A DNA stretch of 64,000 nt, from NCBI GenBank assembly GCA_009829735.1, contig CM020620.1:27250951-27314950 (forward strand), written 5' to 3'. Position 1 is the stretch's first letter; every line of letters begins with the position of its first letter. Below the pieces are notes generated by a model. That model did not search any database, had not been told where the DNA came from, and saw only the letters and a list, made by a program, of their open reading frames with translations. This document shows positions 6,424 to 43,935 of the stretch, in pieces. The position numbers and the translations under genes were made by a program. The DNA comes from Pyropia yezoensis (taxonomy: Eukaryota > Rhodophyta > Bangiophyceae > Bangiales > Bangiaceae).

Positions 6424-8871
6424 TCAGTGGGTAGACCCACTGCCCGAGGGAGGCCACTCACGCGTAAGCGCGTAGACCTCCGTGCTCCACCGGTCGGCAA
6501 CGTCACGACGGTCGACCACCCGAGTTACCTCGGTGCATAGCTGGACGAGGGTGCTGCGGCCAGCCTCCACGTCCTCCAGAGCTTTCTGGAGGCGGTCCAG
6601 CACGCCACCGAAGCAACGCGCTGACCCAACCAGCGCAGCACCTGGGGGGATATCCCCCCAGCTAACAGAGAGACCCCCACGCATGGCGCGGGTAACAAGG
6701 GCGTCAACGCCCTCATACCAGAGACGGGGACCCCCGTCATGTAGGACAGGGGCGGGAGGTGACACTGGCGCAGCCAGAGGAGCCATAGGAGCCGACACGG
6801 CTACCACCGGAGCCGGTGGCACCTGATACGAGGCCCGGTAGGACCCTACCGAAGGGGCTCCACCGTAACCACGGCGGTACTCCGCCCGACGACGGGACAC
6901 CTCACGCTCCCCACCCACAGAGCCCCACTCTCGGGGACGACGGCCAACCGCCGCCGGCATCGGGTTACCGAACCACGGAGCAAGGACCTGAAGAGGGTCA
7001 GGGATAACCATGGGAATACCCAGGTCAGGAACGGCCTCGGTGGACGCCCACCCATGGCAACTAGGCTCACCCGGCTGAGTACGCCGGACACGCAACGAGT
7101 GACGAGGCAAGGGGGAAGCCCCAGCCTGCGGGTCCCGGTACGGGGGAAGGGCCAACACCCCAGCCCAGTTCACGGCATCGTGAACAGCCAGCAGGGCTTC
7201 GAACTCCCGGGCCAACCCGGTCTTGGCAGCTATCAGATCCACGCCCAACTGCGCGATGTGCCGACGGACACCCGTCGGAAGATGAAACAGACGACCCTGC
7301 CGGCGGACGGACAGCAAGAAGGATGAAGCCTGCCCGAGGGTAACCTCAAGGGTGAAGGTACCCTGCAACGGGTGGACCGGCCGGGAGGCCAACACACTCC
7401 CGAAGTATCGGAGGCAGGAGCCGGTGTCAAACCGGAAAGCAGGGGCGGGTTCCCACCCCTCCTGCCATAGCGGCGGGCGCACGGGAGTGTATACCGGAGC
7501 ACGACCGTTGCCGGTCTGCAACGCACACGTTATATCCGTGCGGAACGCATCGGCCATGACACCATGGTTACGTCGCCAACTCGACGCCGACTTCAACCCC
7601 GCCATGGGCGGGTAGGGAGCCGTCAACGACAGATACGGGGGTTCCCCCGGGTAGTAGTCAAAGTCGGGATACCGACCGGTACGGCTCACCGTCTCCCCAA
7701 ACGCAACCGGCTCCGCCGCCGCCGCAATCCCCCGAGCACTAGCCGGGTAGTCAATCTCCCGCGGCAACGCGGGGGCAATCAAGTCGCAGACCCCGAAGTT
7801 GGGGTCGAGGTAGACCTCACCCCGTCCCACCCGGGTGCGCCAGAGCTGCGCATGCCGGTCGTCCGGCTGACTCAGGATCCAATGGTGTTCCACCCGGACC
7901 GCGTTCGGCTGGTTGACCAGCCGCACCAACTCCCGCTCCCAGCACGGGTCCACCTTGACGCGCCGGGAGGATTCTCCACGGGGATGCACCAGGTGGAAGT
8001 CCACCCGCATACGCCCATCGGACTCCATCGACTCTTGCACCGTGAGGCCTCGAACCCGAGCCACCAAGTCGGACACCGACATGGCGGGTTGACCCGCCGC
8101 CACGGCGACGCCGCCACCCAACGGGGCAACCCGGGCAGGACCAGGAAGAATCGGGGGCGCCGGGGGACGCACCACCGGCAGAGGGGCCGACGTCGGAGAT
8201 GGACGAGGCCGAGGAGGAAGAAGAAGGGCGGGCGCCCGCCCGGAGTAACTCCCGGTGTCAACCGCCATGGGAGAAGGAGCGTCTTGACCGCTCGACGCCC
8301 GCGGCACCGCAGGAACGGCACCGGCGCCGGCACCACCCGTCGGCGTAGCCCCCGCCTCGGAAGGGGAAGGCACTTGGACAGCCTCCGGAGCCGGAGCCCC
8401 GGCCGTGCGGACACCCGCACCGTCTTGACCCGCCGCACCGGGTGTCGCACCGCCACCACCACCCGCGTCAACGTCGGGACCGCCTCGAGGAGTCACCGCC
8501 CGGACACCCGGACCACCTTGACCAGCCGGAGTCGGCTGCGGGTCGCGACCTCCGCCGCAGGGCGGACCATCTTGAGGTACCTGCGGTGAGCCGGCACCGG
8601 CACCAGGCCCCATCCGGGCAGCCGGCAGAGAGGGGGTAGAAGCCGCCACGCGCGGTTGACCGCCGGGTTGACCTCCGGCCGACGGCACCGTCGTGCCGCT
8701 GCACACGGACGACAGTCCTCCGGCCGACAGACGGACGGACACCGCAGGCCCGTCGTCGTCAGACGAGCTCACCCCGTAACGCGCGGCGTCGGGACCGACA
8801 GGCGCGTCGTCCTCCATCTCCTCCCCGATCAGGAGGTCTTCCTCCTCTTCAAGCACCTGGGGATAGGACAT
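6424..8871 (-). CDS. aORF1: antisense accessory protein of E1, aORF-core family
   Basis: This ORF lies inside E1 on the strand opposite to gag-pol, between pol and the 3' LTR, and reads towards pol. From the ATG at 8871 it encodes 815 residues; the frame stays open upstream to about 9153 without a better ATG. The N-terminus is strongly acidic (about residues 8-25), followed by ~230 residues of Pro/Gly/Ala-rich linker and a globular region. The core includes Y-F-G-S-V-L-A-S-R-P (around 7390-7416) and then a helix pair with R-Q-G-R-L-F-H-L and V-N-W. Both features can be aligned by eye with the antisense ORFs of E2 and E3 and the gene at 57291. The function is unknown; I recognise no catalytic motif. 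An uninterrupted 2.4-kb frame argues for selection, although high GC lowers stop frequency and inflates antisense ORFs. Confidence 0.7.
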   Translation of the reverse strand: MSYPQVLEEEEDLLIGEEMEDDAPVGPDAARYGVSSSDDDGPAVSVRLSAGGLSSVCSGTTVPSAGGQPGGQPRVAASTPSLPAARMGPGAGAGSPQVPQDGPPCGGGRDPQPTPAGQGGPGVRAVTPRGGPDVDAGGGGGATPGAAGQDGAGVRTAGAPAPEAVQVPSPSEAGATPTGGAGAGAVPAVPRASSGQDAPSPMAVDTGSYSGRAPALLLPPRPRPSPTSAPLPVVRPPAPPILPGPARVAPLGGGVAVAAGQPAMSVSDLVARVRGLTVQESMESDGRMRVDFHLVHPRGESSRRVKVDPCWERELVRLVNQPNAVRVEHHWILSQPDDRHAQLWRTRVGRGEVYLDPNFGVCDLIAPALPREIDYPASARGIAAAAEPVAFGETVSRTGRYPDFDYYPGEPPYLSLTAPYPPMAGLKSASSWRRNHGVMADAFRTDITCALQTGNGRAPVYTPVRPPLWQEGWEPAPAFRFDTGSCLRYFGSVLASRPVHPLQGTFTLEVTLGQASSFLLSVRRQGRLFHLPTGVRRHIAQLGVDLIAAKTGLAREFEALLAVHDAVNWAGVLALPPYRDPQAGASPLPRHSLRVRRTQPGEPSCHGWASTEAVPDLGIPMVIPDPLQVLAPWFGNPMPAAVGRRPREWGSVGGEREVSRRRAEYRRGYGGAPSVGSYRASYQVPPAPVVAVSAPMAPLAAPVSPPAPVLHDGGPRLWYEGVDALVTRAMRGGLSVSWGDIPPGAALVGSARCFGGVLDRLQKALEDVEAGRSTLVQLCTEVTRVVDRRDVADRWSTEVYALTREWPPSGSGSTH

Positions 8872-9458: not shown

Positions 9459-9821
9459 TGTAGCAATATGGTTGTCCGTATTGTGACCCTAATATCAGGG
9501 GGGCTACTTCTAACCCTTAACTTTCAATTTGATAGTTCGTACTGGTCACGGTATCTATAAGTTACGTATGACCAGAGGGACTTGCATCTTGGGGTGGAGG
9601 GTAGTTAGTAGTGTCTCCGAGGGTTTATAACGAGGGGGCCGGTGGCGAATCCACCGCCGGCCAAGGTAGAACAACAAACCCCTCCCATTTGGGCTCCCAT
9701 CTTGGTCCCGTGGCTTGCGCTCCAAGGACAGCAACCTTGGCCTCCCGGTGACGTTGGTGCCGATCCCCCTTGGTGAGTGTTCCCTGAGAGTGGACGTGCG
9801 ACGGATTCCTATTGTGCTACA
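9459..9821 (+). repeat. E1 3' LTR (about 363 bp)
   Basis: The LTR starts TGTAGCAAT just after the polypurine tract. It is judged to end at ATTGTGCTACA, an imperfect inverted match to its start. A TATAA-like stretch lies near 9626-9631. The end point is inferred from the inverted termini because no second LTR copy is visible in this window. Confidence 0.6.
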
Positions 9822-11845
9822 CGCTCACCCCCTCCGCCCAACCCCGTCCCGCCCATCCCTTTTCCGTCAGTATGTCTACCTTCACAGCCATCCACAGCTC
9901 TCGCCCTTTTCGCGTTTTTAACAAGAAGCTGTTTGTTCGCGACGACCTTCGACGGATATTTGCGAGCCGAGCGCCACAAGAAAAACTGGTCGAGCACGCG
10001 CCCCTAGGTGGAAGTCATCCGTCACCATACATAAACCCAACAAACGCTCCCAGCATGAAGAGAGCCCAGATCGTCATGTCAGCGCGCCGTCCTTACCGGG
10101 GGGCAGACGGCCGACGTACATGTGCATGACAGAACCGGCCCCCATCCATCCCCACGAGGCCAACAGGGGTGAGAACTGCATCATCCTCGTCATCAAAGGG
10201 CAGGCGGCGGGTAGAGGGTAGAGGAAGGAAGCAACACACACCCGCCCTCATCGCATCGCCCTCGCTGTCTTGTTCACGAATGGACAGGCAGGCCTTGCGG
10301 GGGAACACGGTTCTGCGCTGCCCTTCCCAAACAAGTGGTAGGCAGCCGCTGCGTCCCATCCATCATTGCGGTCATCGGGACTGCAGCCTCCACAGTTGGC
10401 AGTCGTTGTGCCGTGTGACTTCCCACGGTATCCAACGCGCTTGTGCGCCGTGGGAGCCCCCACGCTGCCCAAGTGCGCGTCACCAGCAGAGAGTCTCTTC
10501 CGTGTCTGTCCGAATGTGATCTTCTAACAACCTCACAACCGCGACCTCGGAATGTACTTACACGACCAACATTGGGCGTTCTGATGAGTTCCAGTCCATC
10601 GGACTGGTCAATTCGTCTGTCTCTGGCTCACTTTAGGGGTTCCGAGGCCCTCAAAGAGCGACTATAGCACATTCGGACTCGAACCGGAGCCCGTTCGAAT
10701 TTTTTTCTGCATTTAACTCCTCTTCGAAGCACCTAAGCAACGCACGCAGGCGAAGCGGGCTGTCCTGTCCGTAAAGGCTATCGAGTACTGAAAAGTACAT
10801 GCACCAAATGCCACTCCGGCAACAACATGCTATTACAGGCGGGCTCCCCACGGGTCCGTACTCGGCTGTCCGACCATGTCCTGGCAAGCATGGTCGCGAG
10901 TGTGACCATGTCTAGTCGGGGGGACGCCGGGGGGACTGGCGTGGTCGCTTCCGCATGCCACCGTCACCACTCGGGTGGTGGGCACGGTGCCTGTGCTTTT
11001 GTGATCGCCCAGCGGATGCGGCGCTGCTGATGTGTGCCAGGAGAATTGCATACATCGACTGAGGGTGGGCGCAGGCGCCACTCGATGCGAGCGCCGGTGC
11101 CCCCGGGGTCCAGGGCGAGGAACCCTCTTTCTGTCAGGGCGAATGGGGACTCGTACGTCTACGTGGCGCGGCCCGACGGGAGGCACCTTCCGGTGATGCC
11201 GCGGCCACGCGCTGCGGGTGTGTGCCAGGAGAATGGCATCCATCGACGAGGGGTGGGCAAGGGCGCCGCTCGATTCGTATGCCGGTGCCCCTGGGGTCTG
11301 GGCCGAGGGAGGCTCTTGCTGTCGAGACTAATGGGGACTTGTCCATCGACGTGACGCTGCCGGATGGGAGGCAACAGCTGGCGATGCCGCGGCCACGGCC
11401 TGCGTTTGCAACCCCGCCACCATCGCCGCAGCCCCCGCCGCCGCGGGTCAACGTCACTTATGGCCGGCGCGGGGACCACCGAATGACTTCAGACGCCGCC
11501 ACAAGTATCGTCTATCATGTTCGGTCAGCTAGAGCGTGGGTCTGTCAGCGTGCCTGCGAGACATTTCTGGTTTTTGTTTTCAAGGGCTCATGGACTGTCG
11601 GTTGCAATGCGGCAGGCTGTGTATTGGAAGGGGCACCTGCTTGGTGTCAGTCTGGGTGAACACGTTACTAGCGTACTGCCAGAGGGACACTGGGAGGCGA
11701 TGTAAATCCTCACGCGTACAATGATGTACTCAGAGATTTGTGCGCCGCAGACGCCCCCAAGGCAAGTCCCGTCGACGACAACGCCGCATCGCCCACCAAC
11801 AAACGATCAAATATATACCAGCAGACCACTGCTGACCTCTATTAC
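9822..11845. other. Intergenic region between E1 and the transposase remnant
   Basis: About 2 kb with only short, overlapping open frames on both strands and no recognisable domain. It holds the tandem duplication at 11032-11408. I see no convincing gene, although the duplicated block could be part of a decayed coding repeat. Confidence 0.6.
11032..11408. repeat. Two degenerate tandem copies of a ~188-bp unit
   Basis: Unit 1 (11032-11218) and unit 2 (11219-11408) both begin GTGTGCCAGGAGAAT and end near GATGCCGCGGCCACG. They differ by scattered substitutions and a 3-nt length difference. On the plus strand each unit encodes a similar ~60-residue segment containing N-G-D and P-D-G-R, but in different frames, so the array is not a simple intact coding repeat. 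Confidence 0.8.
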
Positions 11846-12540: not shown

Positions 12541-13006
12541 AAAGGCAGTATTGACCCCCAGGTAGGGGGGCAACACGTGCCATGCAAGGGGCGGCAGGCC
12601 ACTAGCCTGACCCGTTCCTCCCCCTGCATTTGGGTCCATATTCCCTAAGTAAGGGATATTTAGCTTAGTAGTAAATCCAACGTGGATGTCAGGGTTTTCT
12701 GCATTTATCGTCTTGAATTTTCGTGTGGCCCGGTGGGCAGGTGCTGGGGTGGGAGATTCTGAGTGGCGAGATTCTGAGGGGACCCTGGGGGGATAAGGGG
12801 AGGGACAGCGGGGCTTGGCCTTGCTTCCCCGTCCCGACCAAGAAACTGTTGGCCCACACACCATCTTCTTGTTTGTCAGTGGGATTGCCCCGCAACAGGG
12901 ACAGTGTGTGTGCGACTTGCACTTCTTCCGGTTCCCCCGACACGGGAGGCAGCCCTTGCGCACCGCTCCAACTTGGGTGTCGCGTGTGCGAGCGGTTTTT
13001 GCCACA
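12541..13006 (+). repeat. E2 5' LTR
   Basis: Repeated at 40627-41095. It ends GCCACA, as does the 3' copy. The first three bases are AAA where the 3' copy has TGT, so the outer end is damaged. A minus-strand Cys-rich reading frame crosses the whole LTR. Confidence 0.88.
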
Positions 13007-13008
13007 TT

Positions 13009-13125: not shown

Positions 13126-15072
13126 ATGGGTGGTTCGGACCCCCCGTCGTCTGGGGAGTACACGGGTGACGCACGTACTTCAGTGCCTTTGAATACTGGT
13201 GAGACACAGGTAGGTGTACCTGGGGTCGCAGAGGGACTAGAGGTCCCTCAAGCCAGCAGGACTGGGAGTACGGGCGGGCAACAGGCCACCCCGACTCAGT
13301 AGGGAGTTAATTCGGGTGACACTCCTGATGTTAGTGGGCCGAAGTCCGGCCACCGTGTGGTACACTCAACGGGAACGTCCCGAGGTGAGAGTACTGTCCC
13401 CGCGGGATCCACTCGGGTTGGAGCCAACTTTGGCTTGGAGCCGTCGCCAACTAGGCTTTCGGAGGACGGCAGACCTCCGTTGGTCGGCGATGGGCTCGCG
13501 CCCATGCCCCCGGTTGAGACCCCTGAGGACCGTGGTTACCCCTCAGGTGGACTCCCGGAGGCGGACCGAGACTCAACTGGAGTCGATAATCCACTCCTCG
13601 CGGAAACTGTCCGTCGGGAGGCGACCAATGTGTTGCGGCAGACTTTGCCGGACCTGATAGTCACGATGACGAATGCTATTTTGAATCAGATTGTGGCGAG
13701 TTTGCCAGATGGTCTCAACGTCCAGACCGGATTGGGGCTTTCGAGCCCACAGACGCAGGGGGAATCCCTGCCTACGCCTGTCTCGGGTCTCCCCGAACCG
13801 GAGGCGACCCCTGTGACTCCCAAAGAGGGAGCCATACCATTCTCGGTGGGGCGCACGCCCTTCACGGGGGAGTTCCCCTCGGAAACGCCGGTGGCTACAC
13901 CAAGCTCGCCGCGGCAGACGACAGGCACTGCGGGTCAACTCACCCCATTGCCTCAGCGGCTTTTCCCTCAACGTGAGGTGCCATCCAAGATCCAGGTAGC
14001 CAACCCAGTCTACCAGAGGATCTTTGACTGTGAGATCTACGCCCTCCACAACAAGTCGGTAGCGTACGGTCCTATTCAGGCCCGAGCTATGGGCCGTGCC
14101 AAGAAGAATGCACTTCACTCTTTTGGGCACAAAGCGGAGTGGGATGGAACTCCCCCCCTCCGTGTCTTTGAGTTTCGACGTCGTTTCACAAAAGCCTGTG
14201 ACGACAATGCCATAAGTGAAGGCATGGCTTTCTATATGCTACAGGAGTTTACCACGGGCGACCTACGGACAGAACTCATGTCCGTCATGCCCAGTTCCTC
14301 AAGTGGAGCCGCTGGTGAGGTGACGTCATACTTGGAGCTCGTCAACTGGTTGCTGAGAGCCATGGTGGATGAAGCAGCGTTGGCTTCTCAAGTCGAGGAG
14401 TTTACGCAAGCTCATCAGGAAGAGACTGAGGACGAGTTGTCCTTTGCGGAGCGGGTCCGTGAGCTCAACAATCTTTGTGGCTTTCTTCATCCACAAGCTG
14501 TGGTGAAGAGTCGGTTTGTGGAGGGACTCCATTGGTCAGTCCATACGGAGACCCGGGAGCATAAAACTGCCCGGGCGACACTGGCCGAGTTGGCTAGGTT
14601 CGCCTACCGCAGAGGTGAGGCCTACCGCAAGTTGCGGGAGGAACAACGCCAGGAGCTTCAGGCCGAGTTGGCCAAGGAGCGAGAGGAGGCGCGCCAGGCC
14701 AGAGAGCTACGAGAGGCACGCCGAATCCGCAAGGATAAGGTAGTAGCTGCCGTGGAAACTTTTCAGGGTAACTCATCTACTTACCAAGTCGGGAAGACTC
14801 CTCCGCGAACTGACCATCGGTGTTGGAACTGCAACTCTGATGGACACTGGGCATATGATTGCCCTATGTTGAGTAAACGCATTCAACAACTCTTTAAGAA
14901 TGCGAGTAAGAAGACGGCTACGAACGAAGTACGTTCACGCCGCGAGGGTCGACCTAGACCGGTAGTGGCGGTCGCCACACCCTCGGCGGAGGGGGCGGAC
15001 ACGTCGTCCTCGGACTCGTCGTCTTTCCCTTCGCCCTCGGATTCCGACGCCAAGTCGGCGGGAAACGAATGA
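13126..15072 (+). pseudogene. gag: E2 Gag with CCHC zinc knuckle, broken by an early stop
   Basis: The most natural start is the ATG at 13126. The frame meets TAG at 13300-13302 and then stays open to the TGA at 15070-15072, so one nonsense codon breaks an otherwise continuous ~648-residue protein. After the stop, the first ATG in frame is at 13504. The protein has a Pro/Ser/Thr-rich N-terminus, a helical capsid-like central region with an E/R-rich coiled coil (about 14620-14745), and a CX2CX4HX4C zinc knuckle starting at 14821. The tail is basic then acidic, with a Ser/Asp-rich stretch, ending Ala-Gly-Asn-Glu as in E1. The gag TGA overlaps the pol ATG as ATGA. Confidence 0.85.
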
Positions 15073-18000
15073 CCGTTGGAGTTGGCCGTCCTAAGCTCAC
15101 AACGGCAGCCTCGGCCAAGTGGGTCAAGAGGACGAACCAACCCTGCCGGATACTGCGGCGACTTAAGGGAGTCCGCCCACCTCGGGTAGGACTCCCCAAG
15201 AACGTAAACCCACGTCGGGTCATCGCGGTGCTGACGGGTGAGAACTTCCAGGTGGCTGGACGGGTGCAGCTAGCCCCCGGCCGTGCCTGCTGTGCCCGTC
15301 TCGTACTTGATACCGGTTCAGGAGCCTCCTTGATACGCAAGTCGCTATTACCCAAGGGGATGAAGCTCCAACGCTGGAGGTCTAAGGCCGACCATATGAT
15401 TGACATCAATGGTGGGGTACTTCCCATTGTTGGTGCCGTAACCCTACCAACTAGGTTGGGAACCTATGAGGTCGACGTGACCTGTGGAGTAGTCGATAAT
15501 GTATCGGTACCCATGCTTCTGGGTATCCCTTATGTTGTAACACAAGTGCCTTTGATTTGTGGCGCGGAGTATTGGGTCAAGTTGATGAATGGGGAGACTA
15601 TCCCCATCCTTGGTAACGGAAAGTCTGTGGCTCCTGGGACAGTCTCACAGTCGAAGTCAGTTTGCTCCGTGAGAGAAGGGTTTACCGCTACCCTGCGATT
15701 AGCCCGTAAGGTCACGTTGCCCCCCAACTAGGTGGCGCACGTTGACGTTGTAACTGATTATACGGGGAACGGGTTGGTGCACCCTAACCCCCGTCTTGCT
15801 CGCAAGCACCAAGTGCATGTTGCCCTTGGCACGATGGAATCCAAAGCCGGAGTCCCGTGGAGGATTCAACTGATGAACCTGAGCTCTTCGCCCAAGTACT
15901 TCAAGTCGGGAGCCAAGTTCGGCTATATCGACCAACATGAGAGACCAGTAGTAGCGGTCACCCTCAACTCGGGCGCGACTAGCGACCCGAAGTCCGGAAA
16001 GGAGAAGCACCATGCCAAGCCGGCCGCCTCTCCTCGACCCCATGTGAACATGGAGAATGTTCCACCCAGGTTGAGGGTTCAATTTGAACGCCTCTTGGAC
16101 CAATACCACAAGTTGTGGGATGGTCAATTGGGACTCATGAGAGCCACCAAACACCGGATCGAGTTGCAGCCCGGTGCGCCCCCTATACGCCAACAACCGT
16201 ACAGGGGAGGGCCCCGTTCAAGGGCCCTCGTCAAGGAGCAAGGCGCTCGCATGGAGGCCCTTGATGTGATTGAGCCCAGCAACGCCGAGTGGGCGAGTCC
16301 GGTGGTCATTGTCCCCAAGGTTGATGGGACCCCACGGTTCTGTATCGACTATCGTAAGCTCAACAAGAGCACGGTGAAGGACAGTTATCCCCTACCTAGG
16401 ATGGACGACTGTCTGGACTCTCTGGGGGAGGCAAACGTGTTCTCTACCCTAGACTGTAACGCGGGGTATTGGCACATTCCCATTGCCCCGGAAGACAGGC
16501 ATAAAACTACCTTTACCTGTCACTGCGGTACCTACCAGTGCAAACGACTACCGTTTGGACTGTGCAACGCGCCGGCAACTTTCCAGCGCGCCAAGGACAC
16601 AATTCTGGCCGGAGTACGGTGGCAGATCTGTCTTGTGTACCTAGACGATATCATTGTGTTCTCCCGAAGTCCGGAGGAGCACATTAGCCATCTTGGTCAG
16701 GTCTTCAAGCTACTTGCTGACGCCGGTGTGTCACTGAAGGCGAGCAAGTGCCACCTCTTCACTCAGGAGGTGGAATACTTGGGACATGTTGTCCGTCCGG
16801 GGCGCCTCAGTGTCAACGAGAAGAACTTGAGGGCCATCCGTAAAGCTCAGTACCCCCGGACCCAGACCCAGATGAGGAGCCTCTTCGGAATGTGTAACGT
16901 GTACCGACATTTCACCAAGGGCTTCGCCAAGGTGGCGAAGCCGCTGAATGAGCTAGATAGCTCGACGCTACCGAAGAACCTGCCTCCCCCAAGTCGGGTG
17001 GAGCAGGAATCCTTTGAGACTCTTCGGGACCTACTGCTGAAGCCCCCTATCTTGGCTATTCCCAGGTTGAGAGGCCACTACATCTTAGACGTGGATGCTA
17101 GCTACGACCAACTCGGTTGTGTGTTGCTTCAGCAGCAGCCGGACAAGGAGTACTTTCCGGTAGGATACTTCAGCAAGGGGCTGAACTCAGCTGAGAAGAA
17201 CTATGGAGTCACCGAGTTGAAAGGACTCGCAGTGGTGTGGGCGGTGACGTCACTTCGTCACTACCTGGAGGGTGAGAAGTTCCTCATCCGCTGTGACCAC
17301 CGCGCGTTGCAGTTCATCTTCAAGACGGATTGCACGAACACACGCCTCAACCTGTGGAGGGTGCGACTGGCACCCTTCAACTTTGATATTGAGTACCGAC
17401 CTGGCAGGCAACATGCCCTTGCCGACGGCCTTTCTCGGGTACCTACCGAGGGGCTGGACACTAACTCAGTCGATGATGACATCCCCATCGTGGGGGTAGT
17501 CACGCGCTCGGGTCAGGCGTTGGACCCCGAGGCGCCAGAGAACAAGAAGCACTTGCCCCTGTCCCTGGACGAGGTGGTGAAGGCCCAGGCCGAGGACTCC
17601 TTCTGCAAGTCGCAGAGGGATACGCTAGATATGGTGGCGGAGACGCGGTTCTTCATCGGAGACGATGGCCTCCTCTTGAGGAGGGGGGTAATTCAGGGGA
17701 CCGAACAACTTGTCGTCCCCGCATCCCTCAAGGACAGTATTCTTGAGAGGGAGCACAACGCTCCCACAGGTGGACACCTGGGGTCTAGTAAACTGTACCT
17801 GACCCTGAGGACCAGGTACTACTGGCCGTCCATGGTGGTGGACATCTACAGTCGGGTGGCTGCCTGCACAAGTTGTGCGCAGAACCGTCTGATGGAACGG
17901 CGGCCTACTACGGCTATGTAACTGTTCCCGGCCATGGAGCCCTTTGCCGCGTTGGCAATGGACATCCTTGGGCCCCTGCCAGTGACCGAGGAGGGCAACC

Positions 18001-18121
18001 AGTACCCCCTGGTCATCTGCGATCGCTTCACGAAACTTACGCGAGCGATCCCTCTGGCAGAGATCACGGCCATGTCGGTCGTGTCAGCCTTCCTAGATCA
18101 CTGGGTTGCCGCGTGTGGCAT
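15069..18121 (+). pseudogene. pol: E2 Pol, first part: protease, RT, RNase H and start of integrase
   Basis: The frame opens at the ATG overlapping the gag stop (ATGA, 15069-15072). It holds an aspartic protease (L-D-T-G-S-G near 15310), RT with Y-L-D-D-I-I-V-F-S near 16640, RNase H (D-V-D-A-S near 17090) and the integrase HHCC module (17750-17885). The first integrase aspartate lies in A-M-D-I-L-G-P-L-P near 17960. Two in-frame stops interrupt it: TAG at 15729-15731 (between protease and RT) and TAA at 17919-17921 (just before the integrase core). The reading frame does not shift at either stop. At 18122 the sequence switches to a DNA transposon, and the frame resumes exactly at 37764. Confidence 0.92.
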
Positions 18122-20250: not shown

Positions 20251-20285
<35 letters not shown>

Positions 20286-32328: not shown

Positions 32329-32362
<34 letters not shown>

Positions 32363-33065: not shown

Positions 33066-36000
33066 ATGAAGCGGTGTACCGTAGACGGTTGTGATGACGG
33101 TCGTCTTCTTAGTCCCTGCCACCTTGGCCGTCACCTGCGCAAGCGGCACAGGCTTGCAGATGATGCTGCAGAAGCTGGGACTGCGAGGAGCTTGGCCATG
33201 GGGAGCTCAGAAGAGGATGATGGGGTGGCCGGTGGTGGAGATGGGACTGGCGAGGAGGAGGATATCGATCATGATTTGGTGGGTGGGGGCGGGGGAGATG
33301 ATTCCGAAGAGGAGGAGGATTTCGGGGATGCTGAGGAGAGGGGTGACGGTGGAGATGGTGCGGGAGAGAACGACTGGGACTCGCAAGGAGAAAGCTCCTC
33401 GGCATACGACAGTGACGCGTCGGCGCCGAGTGACTCCAGCTCTGATGATTGTGTGAGCGGGGAACATCCAGATGTGGTCAGATCAGCAGAGATGCGTGCC
33501 GCTAATGATTTGCACGGTGCTGCATTTGCGGATCACGCCTCTCCCGTCGTCTGTGAGGGGGACCTCGTTGAAACGCTCTGCGCGAAGGTGTTGGACTACC
33601 TCGATGAAGTTGGTGATGAGGAGCGCTGTCGTGCTGTGTACGAGGACAACGCTCCGACGGACACATTTGCTTTCGTCACCCCATCGCTGCGCGACGTGTT
33701 TGCCAACGCTTGTACCATGTCTGAGACGCGCATTGCCGCAGCTCATCAGATGTGCTTGTCGGTGGAGCGGGCGACTGGCTCAACGACATTGCCGTTCAAG
33801 GTCGCGTTCCCCACGCCATCGTCGCTCAAGACTGCAGTGCGGAACGAGAAGAGGCGCATGCTGCGGAAGCTGGGGTGGATGGAGGCCGTCGTGACGACGA
33901 AGGTGGGTTCCCATCGTATCCTCCTTCGCAAGGGTCTGAAGGTCGTGCAAGAATGCCTTACGGCGGCCGCAACCGTCAGGTGGGAGCGGGGCTCGGAGGA
34001 TTGTGCTTGTGCGGCTGGCGTCCATTACAGTCAAGACGGATCCCAGAACGGACCAGATGCAGTCGGAAGAAGCTCGCAAGACGTCGATTCCGGGACTGCG
34101 ACGCCCACGTCCGCATGTGCGCATTGCACGCCATCTGTTGCCACTGGAGACATTGTTCCAGCCTTCCCGGTGATGCAAGACGGAGACGTACTGCGTGACT
34201 TCTTTGACGGCCATGCCTACGGAGCTCAGCGGGCGGACGTCAAGCGCGTGTTTGGGCTGTGCGCACAGATGCTTGCACTGGTGCTGTACTCAGATGGGAC
34301 GGTTGTAACCTCTTCTGGTGGTACGTTTTCTCACTGGGATTGATTTTCGTACTACCACACTGCGTGTCACTACTGACCGCATCATGACCTCATTTGCTGT
34401 CATCAGCACAGCTTGTGCTTCTCCATACGTCTCGTCGTAACTTGTACTGACGGAGCGTGCGAACTGTTGATTTGGCCATCGCTGTGTCGGCCCATTGTAT
34501 TTCTTGCAGGTGTGTCTGCGTATCCGCTGCGTATGAGAGTGATGAACATCGTGACCAAGGAACCAGAATGGGTCGTCGTGGCATACATGCCCCAAGTACG
34601 GTCGCGGTACGAGGCAATGTCTTTGTCAAAGGCTGCAGAGGCTCGGGCGGAGATCCTCCAACGCACCATCGCGCTGGTCTTTCGAGATACCATCCTCGCC
34701 AGTCATTTCGGTGCCGAGATGACATTGCCGGACGGTGCCGTGGTGAAGATCATTCCGAGACTCGTACTCTACGTGTCGGACCAGCCAGAAGAGGGGGACG
34801 TCTTGTGCCTCAAGCGTCACGGCAGCGCGTACGACTGCACGCCATGTATGGCACGCTCCACGTCGAGCGGGGTGCGGCCTTCCAGGAAGAATTCTCCAAA
34901 GAAGCGGAACGTGCTCAAGATTGTCAAGCTGCAGCTCAAGGGAGCGCTCATGCGGGGAATAAGGGGCAATGGTGTCATTATCAATGCGATTGAGACCGCC
35001 AACAGCATCCACTGCGTTGTACCTGCACTGGCCGCCTGGGCTGGACTCGGCTCTGGTCCGCTGCTGCTGTACCAGATCTTCGGGTTTGACCGACTACACG
35101 TACGCTCCATACTCCTGTGTTTCCTTGGTGATTGCCAGATGCTGCTTGCATGACGCTGCCGTACATGTCATTGTCACGCATCTGTATTGTATCATCTCTA
35201 CATTTCTCTCCTGCAAGAGGGCTGGTGGCACGTCACTCTTTCTCCGTAACACGTACTGACTCGCACAATCCTCTGCTTGCTATCGTTTATGCTCTGTCCC
35301 CCACTTTCTCCTTCCTTTGCCATTGGCAGGTCATGGACCTTGGCATCTGTAGAACGCTGACAACAGGTGTACATTCCTTTGCCCATGAGCTGGCCGGTTC
35401 GAAGAAGCTTTTGCACGGCACAGCGGGTGAGACTGTGCGTATCGCTAACAAGCGGTTCTTGTTCGCGAGTCGCACGCACCGTGTCCCATCCATCTTCCCG
35501 GGGTAAGATTTGCTTGTCGTGAGAGCTTCATCCTTGTGACGCTGCTGCGTGAGATCTGATTGTATCTTGATGTTGCTACATTCCATTGGAGATGCATGCA
35601 CTATATCTGACTGTTTTATTTGATCTCTAGTCACCGCCCTGGCTGGTTCTTGCACTTGATTCTCTACAAATGCACCTCAGGTACTTCATCAAGAGTGGAG
35701 AGAAACAGGCTACCTTGAAGGGTAAGGAGCACCGTGAGGCGGTTCACTTCTTGCCTTTCGCAGCTGCGGGCTTGTTCGGGCGGTCTGGAGCAGGAGGGCA
35801 GCATCATCGTCTCCTGACGTGGGTGCTCTGCGAGCTCGCCGCGATATTGAAGAGCGCCTTTGATGTGCGGCCGAAGACCTGGGCGGAAGCCAAGTCGGTA
35901 TGTCGTCGTATGAGTCGTTTGATTGAGAACGACTACCAGCCCCTCTTTGGGCCCTCGCACACAACCAAGCTGCATCGCGCAGTGTCGCATCTACTGGACG

Positions 36001-36794
36001 AGTTCTTCCTTCGAGGCAACCTCCAAGACGGTAACACGGGCGTGAACGAGGCCCTGCACAAATTTGTCAAGCTGGCTTTTACACTCACGAACAAGAGTCG
36101 TGTTAACGCGGCATTGCAGATGGTGCTCACGGAGCAGATCCAGAGCGTCGTACGACTCTCACGACAGCGGCAGACATCAAAAGCGACTTCCAAGAAGGCG
36201 TCCAAATTGAGTCGTATGCGTGCCCGTGGGGCGCTCAGCTCCGTCTCCGACTTCGCAGCTGCGTCTGGCTTGGTGACATTGGACGAGGCCCTGCAGTGCG
36301 CTTCATCTGACTTCATCACGACGCAGTCCGGGACGTTGTTGCCAGACGCTGATATCCGTCGGGCGCGCGGCGATCGCACCATGGTCTGGGCCACCCCGGA
36401 CCTGAAGGGACGCCCTTGGTATGACTGGGTTCGCTACCGAGCAGAAGACGGGACGGTCGGAGTGGGGCAGGCACGCGCGATTATTGCGGCCCACAACGGC
36501 ACGCTCAGTCGGACGGTCGTGGTGCACTGTGCTGAGACCGCAAGCTCCGTGCCTGAGTGTCCTTTCACGGCATACGGGTGCGAGAGGCTTCAGTGGTGCC
36601 ACCTGGTTCGGGAGGGTAAGATACGCCCCACCCTTGCGGCCATTTCTTCGCACGAGATCATTGACGTTCTCTGCGTGGAGCACGACTGGGAGGAGTGGGT
36701 GGATCGTGTTGGGGTGTGTCGCTTCCCAAAGAGCTTTGCTTCTGATGCATGTGACTGGCGCGACCACCGCTTCTTTACCAATAACTTTGTGTGA
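33066..36794 (+). CDS. CMC/Plavaka-like DDE transposase, four exons
   Basis: Exons 33066-34320, 34510-35099, 35330-35502 and 35681-36794 join in phase to 1043 residues; all introns are GT..AG. The N-terminus is a C2H2 zinc finger (CX4CX13HX4H from residue 4), followed by an acidic Ser/Gly/Glu region (about 45-130). The catalytic part matches my memory of Plavaka/CMC transposases: L-Y-S-D-G-T, P-x-R-x-x-V-M-N-I, Y-x-S-D-Q-P-E with a C-x2-C soon after, D-R-L-H-V-M-D-L-G, F-P-G-Y-F-I, and N-E-A-L-H-K-F-V-K followed by T-N-K. Candidate triad D410, D509, E796. The C-terminal ~130 residues match the remnant at 11846-12540. No stop breaks it, so the protein could be functional. Family placement is by recognised motif order, not by a search. 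Confidence 0.8.
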
Positions 36795-37723
36795 GGCACG
36801 AGAGAGCCACGCGGCTGCATGATGGTGTGCACACAAGTATCTTGTTGCATCTGACTTATTGTGCTGCCATTGAATGACGTGTCACGCATGGCAAGCCATT
36901 GAACGCCGTTTGACCGTCTGGACCGAGAGAGAAGAGAGGGAGAGAGGGGAGAAATAAGAGCGATACAGGAGTGCGAGACACCACGTCCGCCTTGATTTTG
37001 ACGCTTCGTAGAAAAAATCAGTACTATAATCATTGTCGTTGTTTTGACAAACGTGGTCTGAGAGGCCTCTGTGGCCTGTCCCATGACACAGGCGCACAGG
37101 CCAAGTCATTTCGGGCTGTGCCTTGGCCGTGAGAGCACGCCGAACGAGAATCGCCTTCGCTTCATGCGCTTCGTAGATTTTAGTGCAGGCATGTGGCTCT
37201 CTCTCGTTGCTCCCAGGCGCAGCACCTACCTAGTGCTCATGATAGAGCACAGAATCCAAGAAACCATCTGCTATCAGCCCTTCACAGGCTCCAGTATCTC
37301 TCTGTAGCCCCCCAGCACGGAGTCAATAAGCGTCCCTGTCGCTTCTTACCAGGCAAGGCAGGGCATATTTGGGCCACTGGGGGCACTGAGGTGGACTGAG
37401 GCCCCACCCTCACGCTTGAGATGAAGTTGAAATGCTGTCCTAACCAGATCGAGAACTACCCCACGGAGCATTGATACGGATGGCCGGATGGTCGCCCGCA
37501 TTTGCCTGCGTTGACTGTCATTCTGGACAGCTTTAAGACAATCTCTTTGGCAAAGTCCTCAGGCTCCCAGACTTGAAACAGAACGGTCGCAGGCAACGAC
37601 GCCTGAGCATGGAAATGACACGTAGGGTCCAAAAGATGCAGCCGAGATGCAGTTGGGTACGTTTTCAACAATCCCTACAGCAGTCCTAATGGTGTGCTGA
37701 ACGTGGAGATGTGACGAGTACAA
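36795..37723. other. Right arm of the DNA transposon, no gene seen
   Basis: Transposase 3' flank containing a GA-rich purine run (36925-36958) and subterminal AGATG motifs near 37634, 37645 and 37708. No coding frame stands out. Confidence 0.6.
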
Positions 37724-37763
37724 TCAGATGTCATCAAGATACAGGTGGGCGCGGCTGCCGACG
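37724..37763 (-). repeat. Right terminal inverted repeat of the DNA transposon
   Basis: Read on the minus strand it begins CGTCGGCAGCCGCGCCCACC and ends CATCTGA, pairing with 18122-18160. The next bases (37764-37766, ATC) repeat 18120-18122. Confidence 0.85.
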
Positions 37764-38696
37764 ATCCCGGACAGTACACTATCGGACAATGGACCGCAAT
37801 TTGCGTCCGTACTGATTCGAGGAGTGCTGGATATGCTGAGGGTTCAGGCAAACTATGCCGCCCCCGATCACCCGCAAACTAATGGGCAGGTGGAGCGCTT
37901 CAACAAAGCTATTGTTCGGCAGCTGCCCCACTATGTGAGTGAACACGTGAAAACGTGGGACCAATACAGTTCTATTCTTACGACTGCCTACAATTCGCAG
38001 GTTCACTCATCTACCGGGGAAGTACCCCTCGCTTTTGTGACCCCCCGTCGCGTGCGGTCTATTGCCGTACGGCGGCCGCTCCCAACTAGGGAGGCCGATG
38101 GCAGTACACCTACTCCCACTGAGAGTAAGGCGGAATTCGCTGCTAGGCTCGAAAAACTCATCCCTAAAGTCAGGGCTGAGATGGACAAAGCGCAAAAGCG
38201 CTACAAGCGTACTTTTGACAAAAAGGTGCGCAACGCCAAGCACGTCCCCGAGCAGGGTGACTGGGTACTGGCTCACTCGCACATCCCAACTGGGGGTAAG
38301 TTGGTGTTCCAGACGAAGGGGCCATACGAGGTCCTTCGTACAGATGTACGGCGGTTCACCATCGAAAGTGACGATGGGGTCCGCACAGTAAACGGACAGG
38401 ACGTGGTAAAAATTCCACCACCTCCTGCAGGCGACCCGGCTTGGGCGCGTGCGCTGAAAGCGTGGCGCCTGCTTTCGCTACCTGCGGCCAAACAGGGCCC
38501 GCAGGAGTACGTGTTCGATAAGTTCATCGACCACGGAAGGGATGAGGACACTAACCGCCTCATGTTGAGGGTGCGTTGGTTTGGCTATGAGGCGAAGGAT
38601 GATACGTGAGAATACGTGGAGCACCTTCCCGCTGAGAAGGTCCGGGCATACTGCGCCCGGAATGACATCGACCCTAACTGCCCTCCCTCAACGTGA
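37764..38696 (+). pseudogene. pol: E2 Pol, second part: integrase core 3' half and chromodomain
   Basis: This continues the frame of 15069-18121. It supplies the second catalytic D in S-D-N-G-P-Q-F and the E in N-G-Q-V-E exactly 35 residues later, the GPY/F-like region (T-K-G-P-Y-E), and a chromodomain with R-W-F-G-Y near 38575. The chromodomain is interrupted by TGA at 38607-38609 where E3 has a Trp (D-T-W-E), implying TGG to TGA. The frame then continues to TGA at 38694-38696. Confidence 0.9.
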
Positions 38697-38807: not shown

Positions 38808-40291
38808 CTAGGCACGCATGCTAGACTCCCCAACATCACGGCCCTCGCCCTCACGTGGAGGCGAGCGGCGAGACCCACGCCGATAACGTTCCCCACCCGT
38901 CGGCGGGGGCGGCTGCCCGAAGTCGGAACCGTCGCGCCCCTTACGGTCGCGAAAGTGGCGACGACCGCGGCTACTCTTCTGCTTGGTCTTGCGCGCAAGT
39001 TGGCGACGCAGACGCCGGACCGACTCCGTCTCCGACGGGGTAGAGGACTCCGAGACGGAACAAGACACTTCGTCTTCCGAAACGGGGGGAGACCGCCGCG
39101 AGTGACGGCGACGACGGCGAGGAGGCGAGTATGCCCAGCTCACCCGACGCTTGCCACGCCCAAGTCGGGCTGGTTGGGGCACAATTGACCCAATACGAGC
39201 CAACTCGATCGTCATAAACCCCGCTACCGACTCGCAACTCGCGGTCGCCACAACGGTACGAACGCGCTCCTCAAGTTGAGGAGTCTCGGAAACTTGAAGG
39301 GTTGCAGTCGACGCGGCCAACCAAGAAATGGTGCGCACCAACGTGGTGATCATCATTTCGGAGGTCAAGGGCGTGGTCGGCAATACCAACTTGGGATAGA
39401 CCGTCAGGAGGGTGGCCCCCAAGTTGGGGGACACCGGGGTGGACGACTCAACCGCAATGCTTATCGGGATGTCGCCGTGCGGCTGGAAAGGGACAGGAGG
39501 AAGCGGAGGGGCTCGCCGAGTTGGCAAAATCCGAGAGTAACTGCGACCCCTACTCGGGGCCCCCGCAGTGGGTTGAGTCATGTAGTCATCGTGAGAGGGC
39601 ACGGCCATCACGATTGCCTTGTCCGGGGGGGGCGCAGTGCGGCGATCCACCCCCGGGGCATACGGGTAGTCCCCGATGCCCAACCCCTCTCGGAGTACCA
39701 CACGGCCGTCTTGAAGTTCACGACCGACCCAGACGAACTGGCGAAGTGTGCCATCGTCCTTGGGCCCGCGGGAGGAGCGGCGCAACCTGTACTCGATGCT
39801 CTCCCACTCAATAAGCTTTTGAAGACGCAGCATCTCCTCAAGTAGAGTGAGCTGTCCTGATGAGCACTCCGCAGCAACTAGCTGAGGGGTGAGCTGCTCC
39901 AAACCGTGGATAAGCCGGAGGGCGAGGTGCCAGAGCATCCCCCGCTGCTGAACGCAAGACACCCAGGTCGACATGACCTCGAGGAGCCACTGGGCTGCCA
40001 ACATGGCGAACACCACGTGGTCCGGGCTAGCCGTCAACATGGCGGAGCCGAAGTGATCGAGCAACCGTGGAAGTAAAGCCGGAAACCCGTAGGGGACCTC
40101 AACTTGAGGCCACCACTCGGGCTTCTTAGAGTAGTACTGCTCCTTGCTAGCAGGGGACTGCTGCGGAAACTCGAGTTGAGCCGAGGTCACCAAGTAGGGA
40201 CTTCGCCGAAAGTCCCGGCGGGCGCTGCACCGTAGGACGTGTCCTCCATACGCTCGTCCAAGGAGTCAGTCTCCACCCCCGGGGTCACCAT
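38808..40291 (-). pseudogene. aORF2: antisense accessory protein of E2, frameshifted
   Basis: It lies between pol and the 3' LTR of E2 on the opposite strand. An ATG at 40291 starts a short acidic N-terminus (containing D-E-R-M-E-D) that ends at a TGA near 40189, while the main 461-codon frame runs to 38808. One frameshift between about 40200 and 40270 would join them. The main frame carries W-W-P-Q-V-E-V-P-Y-G (40088-40118), then H-F-G-S-A-M, then Q-R-G-M-L-W-H-L and I-E-W, matching the other antisense ORFs and the 57291 gene. The C-terminus is Arg/Ser-rich. Decay matches the broken gag and pol of E2. Confidence 0.7.
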
Positions 40292-40626: not shown

Positions 40627-41095
40627 TGTGGCAGTATTGACCCCCAGGTAGAGGGGCAACACGTGCCATGCAAGGGGCGGCAGGCCACCAGCCTGACCCG
40701 TTCCTCCCCCTGCATTTGGGTCCATATTCCCTAAGTAAGGGATATTTAGCTTAGTAGTAAATCCAACGTGGATGTCAGGGTTTTCTGCATTTATCGTCTT
40801 GAATTTTCGTGTGGCCCGGTGGGCAGGTGCTGGGGTGGGAGATTCTGAGTGGCGAGATTCTGAGGGGACCCTGGGGGGATAAGGGGAGGGACAGCGGGGT
40901 TTGGCCTTGCTTCCCCGTCCCGACCAAGAAACTGTTGGCCCGCACACCATCTTCTTGTTTGTCAGTGGGGGGATTGCCCCACAACAGGGACAGACTGTGT
41001 GCGACTTGCACTTCTTCCGGTTCCCCCGACACGGAAGGCAGCCCTTGCGCACCGCCCCAACTTGGGTGTCGCGTGCGCGAGTGGTTTTTGCCACA
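40627..41095 (+). repeat. E2 3' LTR (469 bp)
   Basis: It starts TGTGGC and ends GCCACA, a perfect 6-bp inverted terminus, and matches 12541-13006. Confidence 0.92.
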
Positions 41096-41160
41096 TTTAG
41101 TGTAGGGAGCGTTGGCCCGCACGCCGAGGTCCCACAGCGGACCCTGGTCCGGCGGGCCAA
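40630..41160 (-). other. Antisense Cys-rich open frame crossing the E2 LTR
   Basis: On the minus strand both LTR copies are open end to end in the same frame and encode a segment with C-L-P-C, then K-K-C-K-S, then C-P-C-C-G, a zinc-binding-like arrangement. The 3-nt indel between the two LTRs keeps the frame. In the 3' copy the frame runs from 41160 on into the internal region, to 40285. It could be a 5' exon for aORF2 or a chance GC-rich frame. Confidence 0.35.
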
Positions 41161-41287: not shown

Positions 41288-41292
41288 CTGAC
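41288..41292. repeat. E3 target-site duplication, left copy
   Basis: CTGAC directly precedes the LTR and is repeated at 51450-51454. Five bases is the usual size for Ty3/Gypsy integration. Confidence 0.92.
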
Positions 41293-41936
41293 TGTAGCGT
41301 AATGGAACCCAGGCTCCCGAATCCACAAACCACGAACACCCACACAGAGACCACAGTCCGGAGTCCAGGAAGGAACAGGTAAGAGCCCTTGCTGATCCAC
41401 TCGCCCGCCACGATACGAGGCAAAGGTAAACAGGACAAAAGCCCGAGGGAGAAGGAACCCAAAGCACTGTTGATTTTACAAGATGGCCCCGGGGAGAACC
41501 CCGGAGCACCCCTCAAGAACCTCCCCCCCTGGCCCCTCCAGGGGCCCAGAACGAGGCCCCCAGAGGGCGCCCCCAGCGGGCCAAGTGCCAGCAAGGCACC
41601 GGCCGCTCACCGAGCCAACACACGAAAAGCAAGCGAAATCCCCCCACACACAAATGTCAATCCCCAAAAAAAACCCAGTGGGAAAAAGGGGAAAGACACG
41701 AAATCACGCAAGGAAAATAAATGCGAAGAATCAAACAAATAACCCGAAGGTCAGTATGCCCCAACCCGGAAAGTCCTCCGCTCCGGGGGACCAATCAGGG
41801 CACCGGGCGTGTCGCCACTGCCCCGGGCCACCGATGCAAGGATCCCAAGCCAGCGCGTGGTTCCACGTAACGCTGCCAGCCGGGTCCCAAGTCAGCCTCC
41901 CGGGTCCCAACGGTACCTGAGGGCCACAACGCCACA
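41293..41936 (-). repeat. E3 3' LTR (644 bp)
   Basis: In element orientation it begins TGTGGCG and ends CGCTACA. It is nearly identical to 50806-51449. Confidence 0.95.
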
Positions 41937-41949
41937 TGGCCCCCTCACT
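41937..41949 (-). other. E3 polypurine tract
   Basis: On the minus strand GTGAGGGGGCCA lies directly before the TGTGGCG start of the 3' LTR. Confidence 0.7.
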
Positions 41950-42507: not shown

Positions 42508-43935
42508 ATGGAGCCCGGCCGCGCCGCGACGAGCGCGTCGGCTGGCAAGGGCTCGACGGTTCCTGGCGGTCCCAGCGTGCCTGTGGGTGCGGCGGTACCT
42601 GGGGCCCAGGGCGGTCCCATCGTTCAAGGCGCAGCGGGTCAAGGGGCTCCCGGCGGCCAAGGCGTACCGGTTGCTGGGCCAGATGGGAACAACATGGAAC
42701 AAGAGGAACGTGGTGCGGGTCAAGCGTACGTCACGGTCCATGGCACGGTACCCGAGGACTTTGGTCCCGAGACGGTCACCGCTTGGCGCCGGGAAGAGGC
42801 CCGCGGTGGGGTCACCGGTACCCTGGCCCATAAGGTCCTTCGAGTCGTGGACGGGTCCTGTCCCGGGAACGCGTTCCGGAAGCAGATGACCGCGATGGTC
42901 CAAGCGCGGATCCCGGTTAAGGCCGATCGGTCCCTGTCGATAACGGTGGTCCGGCACGCGGGAGAAATTGGGTACGTGGAGCGGTTCAAGAGCATCCGGG
43001 ACGAGGTCACCAAGGGGACCCTGCCTGCGGCCCCAGGTCCCGACTACATCGTGCTCCCGTCTCCCTACTTGGACCCTACTTCCTTCAAGCCGTCCCATGG
43101 GGACCTTGTGGTCAGTCGGCTCCATCGGGACAAGAATGGGATCCTGGTCGGCTGGCACCAGCAAGAGTTCCCGAGTTGCCCGGCTACCCTCCGTGGGCTC
43201 CACTACCTCCGGGTACCCCACTGGTTCGGTCACGTTGAGGTCCCTTTTGGGGCCCTGGTGGAACTGCCCCCGGTCCAGTGCTACTTCGGGGACCTCCTTC
43301 GTGCCTCGGACCCCTTTGCCTGGTTCGTGCTCCGGACCGAGTGGGCCACGAACTGTGCCCTTTATACCCTGGAGCGGGCCCGTGGTTCCGGTGAGATGTG
43401 TCTCCTTCCTCGTCTCCTTCGGACCTGGATCGACCGTGTTGGGGTCCCTGATATCTGCAAGGGTCCCGGTGGCGTGGACGAGGGAGCGGCGCGGGACCTC
43501 AAGGCCCTCATGGTTCTTAGCGACCGGGTGGTCGGGGCCCCTGGACTCCGTTCACTTTTGGGTCAGGCGGCTTCCAACCGCAAGGATCGTGCTTCCTATG
43601 TCCTGGTACGGTTCGAGACCCGGGACGGGACCTGGGCAGCGCTCGTGGACGAAGACCTGGCTCCCTTGGACCGTCCTTACTCGACGGACATCCTGGACGC
43701 GCGGGAGGTTGTCGGACCCAAGGACGGGAACGTGGGCCAGTCGGACGAGATTGTGCCTGGAAGTGGGTCCGGTGGTCTTGGTGCCCCTGGTACCCCTGGT
43801 GCCCGGTCGTCGGGCTCCGTGGTTCAACGTGACCCTGCGCTGGGAAGCCGTACCGTCTTCGTGGCCAACTTGTTGGCCCATGGCGAGGTACCTGATGAGG
43901 AACTTCGGGACCTTGAGGGTAACCTGGCTACCTGA
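42508..43935 (+). CDS. aORF3: antisense accessory protein of E3, aORF-core family
   Basis: This 475-residue ORF lies between the 3' LTR and the 3' end of pol, on the strand opposite to gag-pol, and is intact. The first ~70 residues are Gly/Ala/Pro-rich. The core includes H-V-E-V-P-F-G (about 43231-43251), C-Y-F-G-D-L-L-R-A-S-D-P (about 43279-43314), a helix pair with R-T-W-I-D, and a later V-L-V-R-F-E-T-R-D-G segment. The first two align with V-E-V-P-Y-G and H-F-G-S-A-M-L-T-A-S in aORF2, and the last with the V-W-V-G-R-E-L-Q-D-G of aORF2. No named domain is recognised. It is intact although the pol of the same element is broken, which could reflect independent expression or simply chance and youth. 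Confidence 0.75.
   Translation: MEPGRAATSASAGKGSTVPGGPSVPVGAAVPGAQGGPIVQGAAGQGAPGGQGVPVAGPDGNNMEQEERGAGQAYVTVHGTVPEDFGPETVTAWRREEARGGVTGTLAHKVLRVVDGSCPGNAFRKQMTAMVQARIPVKADRSLSITVVRHAGEIGYVERFKSIRDEVTKGTLPAAPGPDYIVLPSPYLDPTSFKPSHGDLVVSRLHRDKNGILVGWHQQEFPSCPATLRGLHYLRVPHWFGHVEVPFGALVELPPVQCYFGDLLRASDPFAWFVLRTEWATNCALYTLERARGSGEMCLLPRLLRTWIDRVGVPDICKGPGGVDEGAARDLKALMVLSDRVVGAPGLRSLLGQAASNRKDRASYVLVRFETRDGTWAALVDEDLAPLDRPYSTDILDAREVVGPKDGNVGQSDEIVPGSGSGGLGAPGTPGARSSGSVVQRDPALGSRTVFVANLLAHGEVPDEELRDLEGNLAT

Follow-up and report, generated by a model that had tools for sequence, protein, structure and literature searches.

Three Ty3/Gypsy retrotransposons in a 64,000-nucleotide stretch of the red alga Pyropia yezoensis (contig CM020620.1, positions 27,250,951 to 27,314,950 of the forward strand; the whole stretch is called the window here) each carry a long open reading frame (ORF) between pol and the 3' long terminal repeat (LTR), on the strand opposite to gag-pol. 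Sequence comparison indicates that these three antisense frames, aORF1, aORF2 and aORF3, belong to one unnamed protein superfamily and that they are kept as protein by frame-specific purifying selection. The explanation that we favor, and to which we give about an even chance, is an inherited antisense accessory gene, probably regulatory or anti-silencing, in related Pyropia Ty3/Gypsy elements. The genome searched comprises 107.5 Mb in 11 contigs; LTR retrotransposons predominate among its repeats, according to the cited part of an earlier description (PMC7423979).

Results

Position and Integrity of the Antisense Frames

A first-pass annotation of the window had drawn, in each of three elements, a long ORF that runs against gag-pol in the interval separating pol from the 3' LTR, and our mapping of LTRs and pol agrees with this arrangement. 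The LTR ends were placed by eye; paired LTRs are seen for elements 2 and 3, and a target-site duplication for element 3 only. Because LTRs, termini and this one duplication bracket the aORFs, the frames sit inside the elements. aORF1 (6424..8871, minus strand) is an intact ATG ORF of 815 residues at exactly the coordinates first drawn, antisense to pol and nested in a 909-codon open frame. For aORF2 the single frame drawn at 40291-38808 had to be abandoned: the interval does not divide into whole codons, and many stops interrupt the translation. The open frame is 38808..40265 (minus strand; 485 codons), a damaged copy that has lost its N-terminal part, while most aORF2 copies examined extend to 647 codons from an ATG. 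aORF3 (42508..43935, plus strand) stands as an ATG ORF of 475 residues but is C-terminally short, ending about 115 residues before the C-terminus of its database relatives.

The longest antisense open frames in the three pol-to-LTR regions are 909, 485 and 535 codons for aORF1, aORF2 and aORF3, respectively. In the shuffle control that the annotation had suggested, 500 dinucleotide shuffles of each region gave maxima of 408, 390 and 478 codons, and none reached the real frame.

The Three aORFs Belong to One Superfamily

BLASTP related aORF2 to aORF3 (E value 6e-7), aORF1 to aORF2 (4e-6), and aORF2 to a further window ORF at 57291, here called P0003 (1e-10). For the pairs aORF1-aORF2, aORF2-aORF3, aORF2-P0003 and aORF3-P0003, 0 of 1000 shuffled partners matched the real bit score. 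The direct aORF1-aORF3 similarity is weaker (E 0.003, with 2 of 1000 shuffles reaching the score), and no BLASTP similarity was found between P0003 and aORF1, the score being reached by 446 of 1000 shuffles. Profiles were also searched against the 403 window ORFs of at least 80 codons at E ≤ 0.1. Besides itself, the aORF3-family profile matched only aORF2 (1.6e-9) and P0003 (2.9e-8); the aORF2-family profile matched P0003 (7.7e-13), aORF3 (1.5e-7) and aORF1 (2.8e-4); and the aORF1-family profile matched none of the other three frames in the window.

The shared, unnamed family claimed in the first-pass annotation is borne out by profile-profile comparison, in which the best E values within the superfamily (2.8e-7 and 4.3e-7) were reached by 0 of 100 permuted controls. 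The aORF3 family aligned to the aORF2 family with a score of 65.2 (probability 93.3; permuted maximum 27.6), and P0003 aligned to the aORF3 family in hhalign at 7.7e-8. The pooled profile A5 aligned to the aORF1 family with a score of 66.7 (probability 92.7, E 4.3e-7; permuted maximum 22.4, reached by 0 of 100 controls). Against the separate profiles A1 and A3 the aORF1 family gave probabilities of 12.7 and 31.8, both above all 100 permuted controls, and A2, another aORF1 alignment, gave 73 and 75. By these comparisons the membership of aORF1 is secure only through the pooled profile. Core identity between branches is about 18-28%. Eight homologues of aORF1 were found, six of them from Pyropia vietnamensis (Bangiales) at 52-63% identity and the other two at 95%.

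Searches of Pfam, NCBIfam, PHROG and PDB by sequence yielded no credible match for the superfamily proteins: PHROGs gave nothing at E 0.1, and NCBIfam nothing at E 1 for four proteins of the superfamily. In the proteins checked we found no known domain and nothing that marks an enzyme, and the pattern C-x(2-4)-C was absent. At the Pfam threshold of E ≤ 10, isolated matches to Caps_syn_GfcC_N (0.24 in one of eight A1 members, again one of the 12 of A5) and DUF6214 (0.014 in one of nine A2 members) were not credited, nor were the best PDB sequence matches (E 0.52 and 0.33). A relationship to Gag was looked for and did not emerge: A5 gave a probability of 0.3 against both gag3 (E 0.22) and gag1 (E 0.21), the two Gags compared. 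Both low-confidence AlphaFold2 drafts have helices first and a beta hairpin after them; we do not take this agreement as evidence.

Selection Acts on the Antisense Frame

The ratio of nonsynonymous to synonymous substitution rates (dN/dS), a check proposed at the outset, is 0.19-0.20 for aORF2 when the window copy is compared with four of 28 readable copies, and 0.22-0.42 for aORF3 in six pairs among the window copy and three relatives, where dS is 1.15-1.82 and near saturation. These values are not neutral. The corresponding uncorrected proportions (pN/pS) in the antisense frame are 0.23-0.24 for aORF2 and 0.37-0.61 for aORF3. Over the same two ORFs they are 0.99-2.07 in the two shifted frames and 0.94-2.22 on the opposite strand, one frame that shares wobble positions with the antisense frame excepted; there they are 0.29-0.33 (aORF2) and 0.49-0.68 (aORF3), above the antisense frame in 10 of 10 pairs. 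For aORF1, 30 near-identical copies gave pN/pS of 0.42, against 1.13 and 1.54 in the shifted frames. In those 30 copies the final stretch of pol gave 0.46, similar to aORF1; within aORF1 the core had a ratio of 0.35 and the C-terminal part one of 0.26. The antisense frames are, to judge from these patterns, kept by frame-specific purifying selection as protein, in keeping with the annotation's suggestion of a kept function.

Genome-Wide Distribution and Linkage to pol

All match counts in the genome are lower bounds in which the best candidates were scored. aORF1 has at least 55 matches, its own copy included, 53 of them stop-free; aORF2 has at least 88, of which 84 are stop-free by a count from the listing, and the others are 86-88% identical to the window copy, which is outlying. 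All 30 fetched loci of aORF1 and all 30 of aORF2 lie downstream of and antisense to pol, in a sample of 60 that was chosen by the aORF and includes the two window copies. aORF3 has at least 90 matches, from itself at 100% through 98% down to 35%, some of which are pieces of one copy; by hand count 52 are stop-free. Thirty-nine of the 90 lie within 4 kb of a listed element-3 pol, at 36 pols, and each of these is found downstream of its pol on the opposite strand. Identities of aORF3 and pol are correlated (Spearman 0.89 over 35 pairs, element 3 left out), the aORF changing faster. In the element-3 clade the aORF evidently descends with pol.

Twenty-six pols share at least 93% identity with element 3, and we split them post hoc by the end of the match. 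Among those matching to residue 640, 11 of 13 (element 3 included) have an aORF3 match within 4 kb; among those ending at residue 639 (93-98% identity), a scored aORF3-family match within 4 kb occurs in 0 of 13. Of these last 13 pols, nine retain an integrase piece free of stops, and four show a stop-free match within a frame of 1437-1438 codons. Either aORF3 was lost or replaced in the 639 subgroup, or it is too diverged there to score. That none of the 13 sister pols has a detected aORF3 suggests that the frame is not strictly needed by every copy. These 13 pols are C1:40722952, C1:22571043, C1:1875400 and ten others.

A Fourth Branch in a Dispersed Repeat

P0003 (57291..58319, minus strand) encodes 342 residues from a probable Met and has no detected pol adjoining. 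The first-pass annotation had treated it as a gene related to the aORFs. The relationship holds, but the ORF is a fourth branch of the superfamily inside a dispersed repeat and not a stand-alone gene. The repeat is at least 8.7 kb long (window 55328-64000), with long copies mostly 92-96% identical; it extends past the end of the window, within which no reverse transcriptase (RT) was detected in it, and RT or integrase may lie farther on. Since P0003 lies in a repeat without detected pol, the superfamily is apparently not confined to the antisense site beside pol. In all, P0003 has at least 118 scored genome matches: at least 22 near full length at 83-100% identity (itself included; 15 stop-free by count), six at 52-91%, and 90 weaker ones, of which 88 are at 25-36%. 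Many of the weak matches lie in long open frames of up to about 900 codons, and they probably represent further multi-copy groups; examples of P0003-like places are C1:25284380-25285255 and C2:12526000-12526773. None of the 88 lies within 6 kb of an element-3 pol (two matches, at 53% and 69%, were left out).

Pfam matched none of the three other larger ORFs that were tested in the repeat. ORFs at 61043-62137 (plus strand) and 63085-63726 (minus strand) have no credible domain and overlap an inverted repeat (61509-61950 versus 63401-63792, about 66-68%).

Discussion

Under the explanation that we favor, the common ancestor of a related group of Pyropia Ty3/Gypsy elements would have held an accessory gene between pol and the 3' LTR, on the opposite strand. 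The co-variation of aORF3 and pol identities is the reason for attributing the sharing of the aORF to a common element ancestor. The gene would form its own antisense transcription unit, starting in the leader or the 3' LTR and heading to pol. Such a unit is most likely because the ATGs of aORF1 and aORF3 lie about 590 and 570 bases, respectively, inward of the 3' LTR; by-eye inspection of the antisense strand for promoter and splice signals found nothing useful. The product would be an accessory factor with no recognized enzyme signature that aids persistence of the element, most likely a regulator acting in trans or an anti-silencing factor, possibly with a nuclear or chromatin role. It would not be strictly needed for the reverse transcription and integration of each copy. 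We infer an accessory rather than a structural or catalytic role because selection on aORF1 resembles that on pol, the aORF descends with pol, a close subgroup apparently lacks the ORF, and a homologue sits in another repeat.

Several observations weigh against this explanation. The function, location and transcription that it proposes are all predictions from sequence. The low-complexity N-terminal third of aORF1 shows weak constraint (pN/pS 0.71), and 116 of the 148 aORF1 variants are singletons. Stops interrupt 38 of the 90 aORF3 matches. Only 36 of the 69 listed element-3 pols have a scored aORF3-family match within 4 kb; at the other 33 aORF3 is absent, or present but unscored. Among the proteins checked a strongly basic stretch occurs in the aORF2 branch only, and none was found in seven proteins of the aORF1 and aORF3 branches or in P0003. 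The AlphaFold2 models are of low confidence (mean predicted local distance difference test score 39.9 for A1 and 35.3 for A5) and offer no functional hint.

The long antisense frames could also be a by-product of high GC content, the selected product being an antisense RNA that forms double-stranded RNA or small RNAs and limits its own element. In shuffled high-GC pol-to-LTR regions the longest open frame does average about 200 codons, and one paper, in the part cited, discusses what antisense RNA may do in other elements (PMC7264820). Yet pN/pS is low in the antisense frame and high in its shifted frames (0.42 against 1.13 and 1.54 for aORF1; 0.23-0.24 for aORF2 and 0.37-0.61 for aORF3 against 0.99-2.07), and the branches can still be recognized as similar proteins at a core identity of about 18-28%, so that we consider an RNA product very improbable. 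Barely credible, in our judgment, is a real gene on the sense strand of which the antisense frame is the shadow. The sense strand has open frames of 372, 218 and 351 codons over the same regions, and one opposite frame has low pN/pS (0.29-0.33 and 0.49-0.68 for aORF2 and aORF3), but the antisense value is lower in every one of the 10 pairs, which is what mere sharing of wobble positions would produce in the other frame. The antisense frames are also the longer ones in all three elements and it is in the antisense reading that the inter-family homology was found; no other window ORF of at least 80 codons matched the aORF3 or aORF2 profiles, in searches that did not include a separate one for sense-frame homology.

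Two further explanations concern the origin of the protein. The aORFs might be diverged members of Transposase_28 (PF04195) or of the plant mobile domain (PF10536) that work in the same way, which we regard as unlikely. Transposase_28 ORFs of Retand elements share the site and strand (PMC11963269), and the plant mobile domain likewise occurs in Gypsy elements and another repeat type (PMC5418596), as far as the cited passages describe them. Against such membership, neither PF04195 nor PF10536 matched any A1, A2 or A5 member at E ≤ 10, within the filters of HMMER, and PF04195 had 0 matches in the whole Pyropia genome, in a search run without a land-plant control. In favor of membership, P0003 has a pattern P-x-G-x(4,5)-L-x-D-V-x-x-L-x-G with a putative resemblance to the plant mobile domain. 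A host gene captured by the elements would suit the antisense orientation, as a gene with its own promoter, but is decidedly improbable: all four proteins are repetitive (at least 55, 88, 90 and 118 matches), the apparently stand-alone P0003 sits in a dispersed repeat, and a single-copy host homologue was not seen in a search that was not exhaustive.

By structure the Pyropia frames fall in the class of antisense additional ORFs (aORF-3R) that, in the parts cited, comprises Retand ORF4, Grande gene23, RIRE2, PvRetro13 and Boty (PMC7264820, PMC11963269); by sequence they match neither PF04195 nor PF10536 at the available sensitivity. The annotation's remark that antisense ORFs are known in plant Ty3/Gypsy elements is correct and extends to the fungal Boty. 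Like the known aORF-3Rs they are conserved, occur in many copies, follow pol ahead of the 3' LTR on the strand opposite to gag-pol, and have no assigned function, but the hosts named in those passages are, besides land plants, the fungi Botrytis and Sclerotinia, not red algae. Retand is described as lying outside the chromoviruses, with Transposase_28 encoded by 97% of its clusters (PMC11963269), whereas element 3 has a Pfam chromodomain and the Pyropia aORFs have no Transposase_28 match; another source puts the share of elements with Transposase_28 at 23% for Retand, and the share with the plant mobile domain at 57% for Ogre (PMC6317226). The Boty antisense protein was set beside the Pyropia aORFs by description only. 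The plant mobile domain is, according to the passages cited, found in Ogre-type Gypsy elements, in Mutator-like elements (MULEs) and in silencing genes (PMC5418596), and its host versions MAIN/MAIL1 act in silencing (PMC5418596, PMC6317226, PMC9289625). It resembles the Pyropia superfamily in being borne by Gypsy and another transposable element type; it differs in that it does not match the Pyropia proteins and that no host-gene member was found here. The Chlamydomonas element REM1 is an algal chromovirus that also has a reverse-frame part, but there this is described as what remains of an integrase, truncated yet still with GPY/F and chromodomain, rather than as a protein family of its own (PMC2774666). 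HBZ of human T-cell leukemia virus type 1 (HTLV-1) is an antisense-encoded nuclear accessory protein, and the HTLV antisense promoter lies in the 3' LTR, in the sections cited (PMC11963269, PMC7264820); the parallel is an analogy and no homology is claimed.

The class of position and strand is already known, while the protein family and the red-algal host look new: among the titles and abstract openings that our searches of open-access literature listed, none dealt with such frames in retrotransposons of red algae. What antisense accessory genes do for LTR retrotransposons has long been a puzzle; they are known mainly from plant Gypsy elements and one fungal element, with no settled function. 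An apparently unrelated family with that site and strand, present in red algae and in one chromodomain element or more, would suggest that the position is a recurring solution. A wider proposal is possible and we advance it tentatively: a red-algal superfamily borne by transposable elements and useful to mobile elements of at least two kinds, as an independent counterpart of the plant antisense and mobile-domain regulators, with a recently amplified aORF-less sister subfamily that may use the protein in trans. The two close element-3 subgroups, differing in the detected ORF, offer a natural comparison for the role of the aORF.

Annotation of the Elements

The three elements share the Ty3/Gypsy order of RT, RNase H and integrase, in a single ORF in element 1 and in pieces in elements 2 and 3. 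Their Gags, which had been called unrelated, are homologous (gag2-gag3 2e-35, gag1-gag2 1e-14, gag1-gag3 2e-7), and the pol pieces are 35-47% identical. That all three are chromoviruses holds by Pfam for element 3 (Chromo 1.6e-5); in elements 1 and 2 the chromodomain-like pol end is a by-eye assignment.

Element 1 (plus strand) has a gag ORF at 227..1768 (513 residues; a zinc-knuckle match at E 0.045 is below the cut-off), homologous to gag2 and gag3, and pol at 1777..5943 with RVT_1, RNase H, Integrase_H2C2, rve and a protease-like region; Pfam Chromo did not match this pol, the end of which is chromodomain-like by eye. The 3' LTR (9459..9821, plus strand; 363 bases, TGTAGCA...TGCTACA) is preceded by a purine-rich tract, and many other genome copies end at 9821-9822. 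The 5' LTR was not seen; positions 1-106, where the 5' end of the element would continue, are N. The window contains 606 N, from 1-106 up to 26208.

Element 2 (plus strand) begins with a 5' LTR at 12544..13006, its end placed by eye within a 473-base alignment to 40630-41102 at 96.8% identity. The gag, protease-like and RT/RNase H/H2C2 ORFs follow at 13357..17921 (the protease match is below the cut-off), the 5' part of pol being 15732-17921. The C-terminal part of the integrase lies at 37701..38609 (rve_3 4.4e-4, below the cut-off; 35% identity to residues 1091-1364 of the element 1 pol), and the 3' LTR at 40627..41095 (TGTGGCA...TGCCACA; ends by eye). Most simply, this would be a single element split by an insertion of about 20 kb. 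Between the halves (17922-37700) a segment of about 5.2 kb is directly duplicated (20544-25708 versus 26209-31385, 98.7%), and an ORF at 34413-35153 matches Plavaka transposase at 1.7e-9.

Element 3 (minus strand) is flanked by its target-site duplication, CTGAC, at 41288..41292 and 51450-51454. Its 3' LTR (41293..41936) and 5' LTR (50806..51449) lie in a 652-base alignment of the former with 50806-51457 at 98.8%, with ends by eye. The RNase H/integrase/chromodomain piece of pol (44707..46629; Chromo, rve and H2C2) has at least 69 places in the genome, and the RT piece is a separate ORF at 47225..48244 (RVT_1 1.8e-14). gag (49048..50664) matches Retrotrans_gag (0.0021) and zf-CCHC (0.014), both below the cut-off, in addition to its homology to gag2. 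At several of the places in the genome, relatives of the element 3 pol sit in open frames of about 1437 codons.

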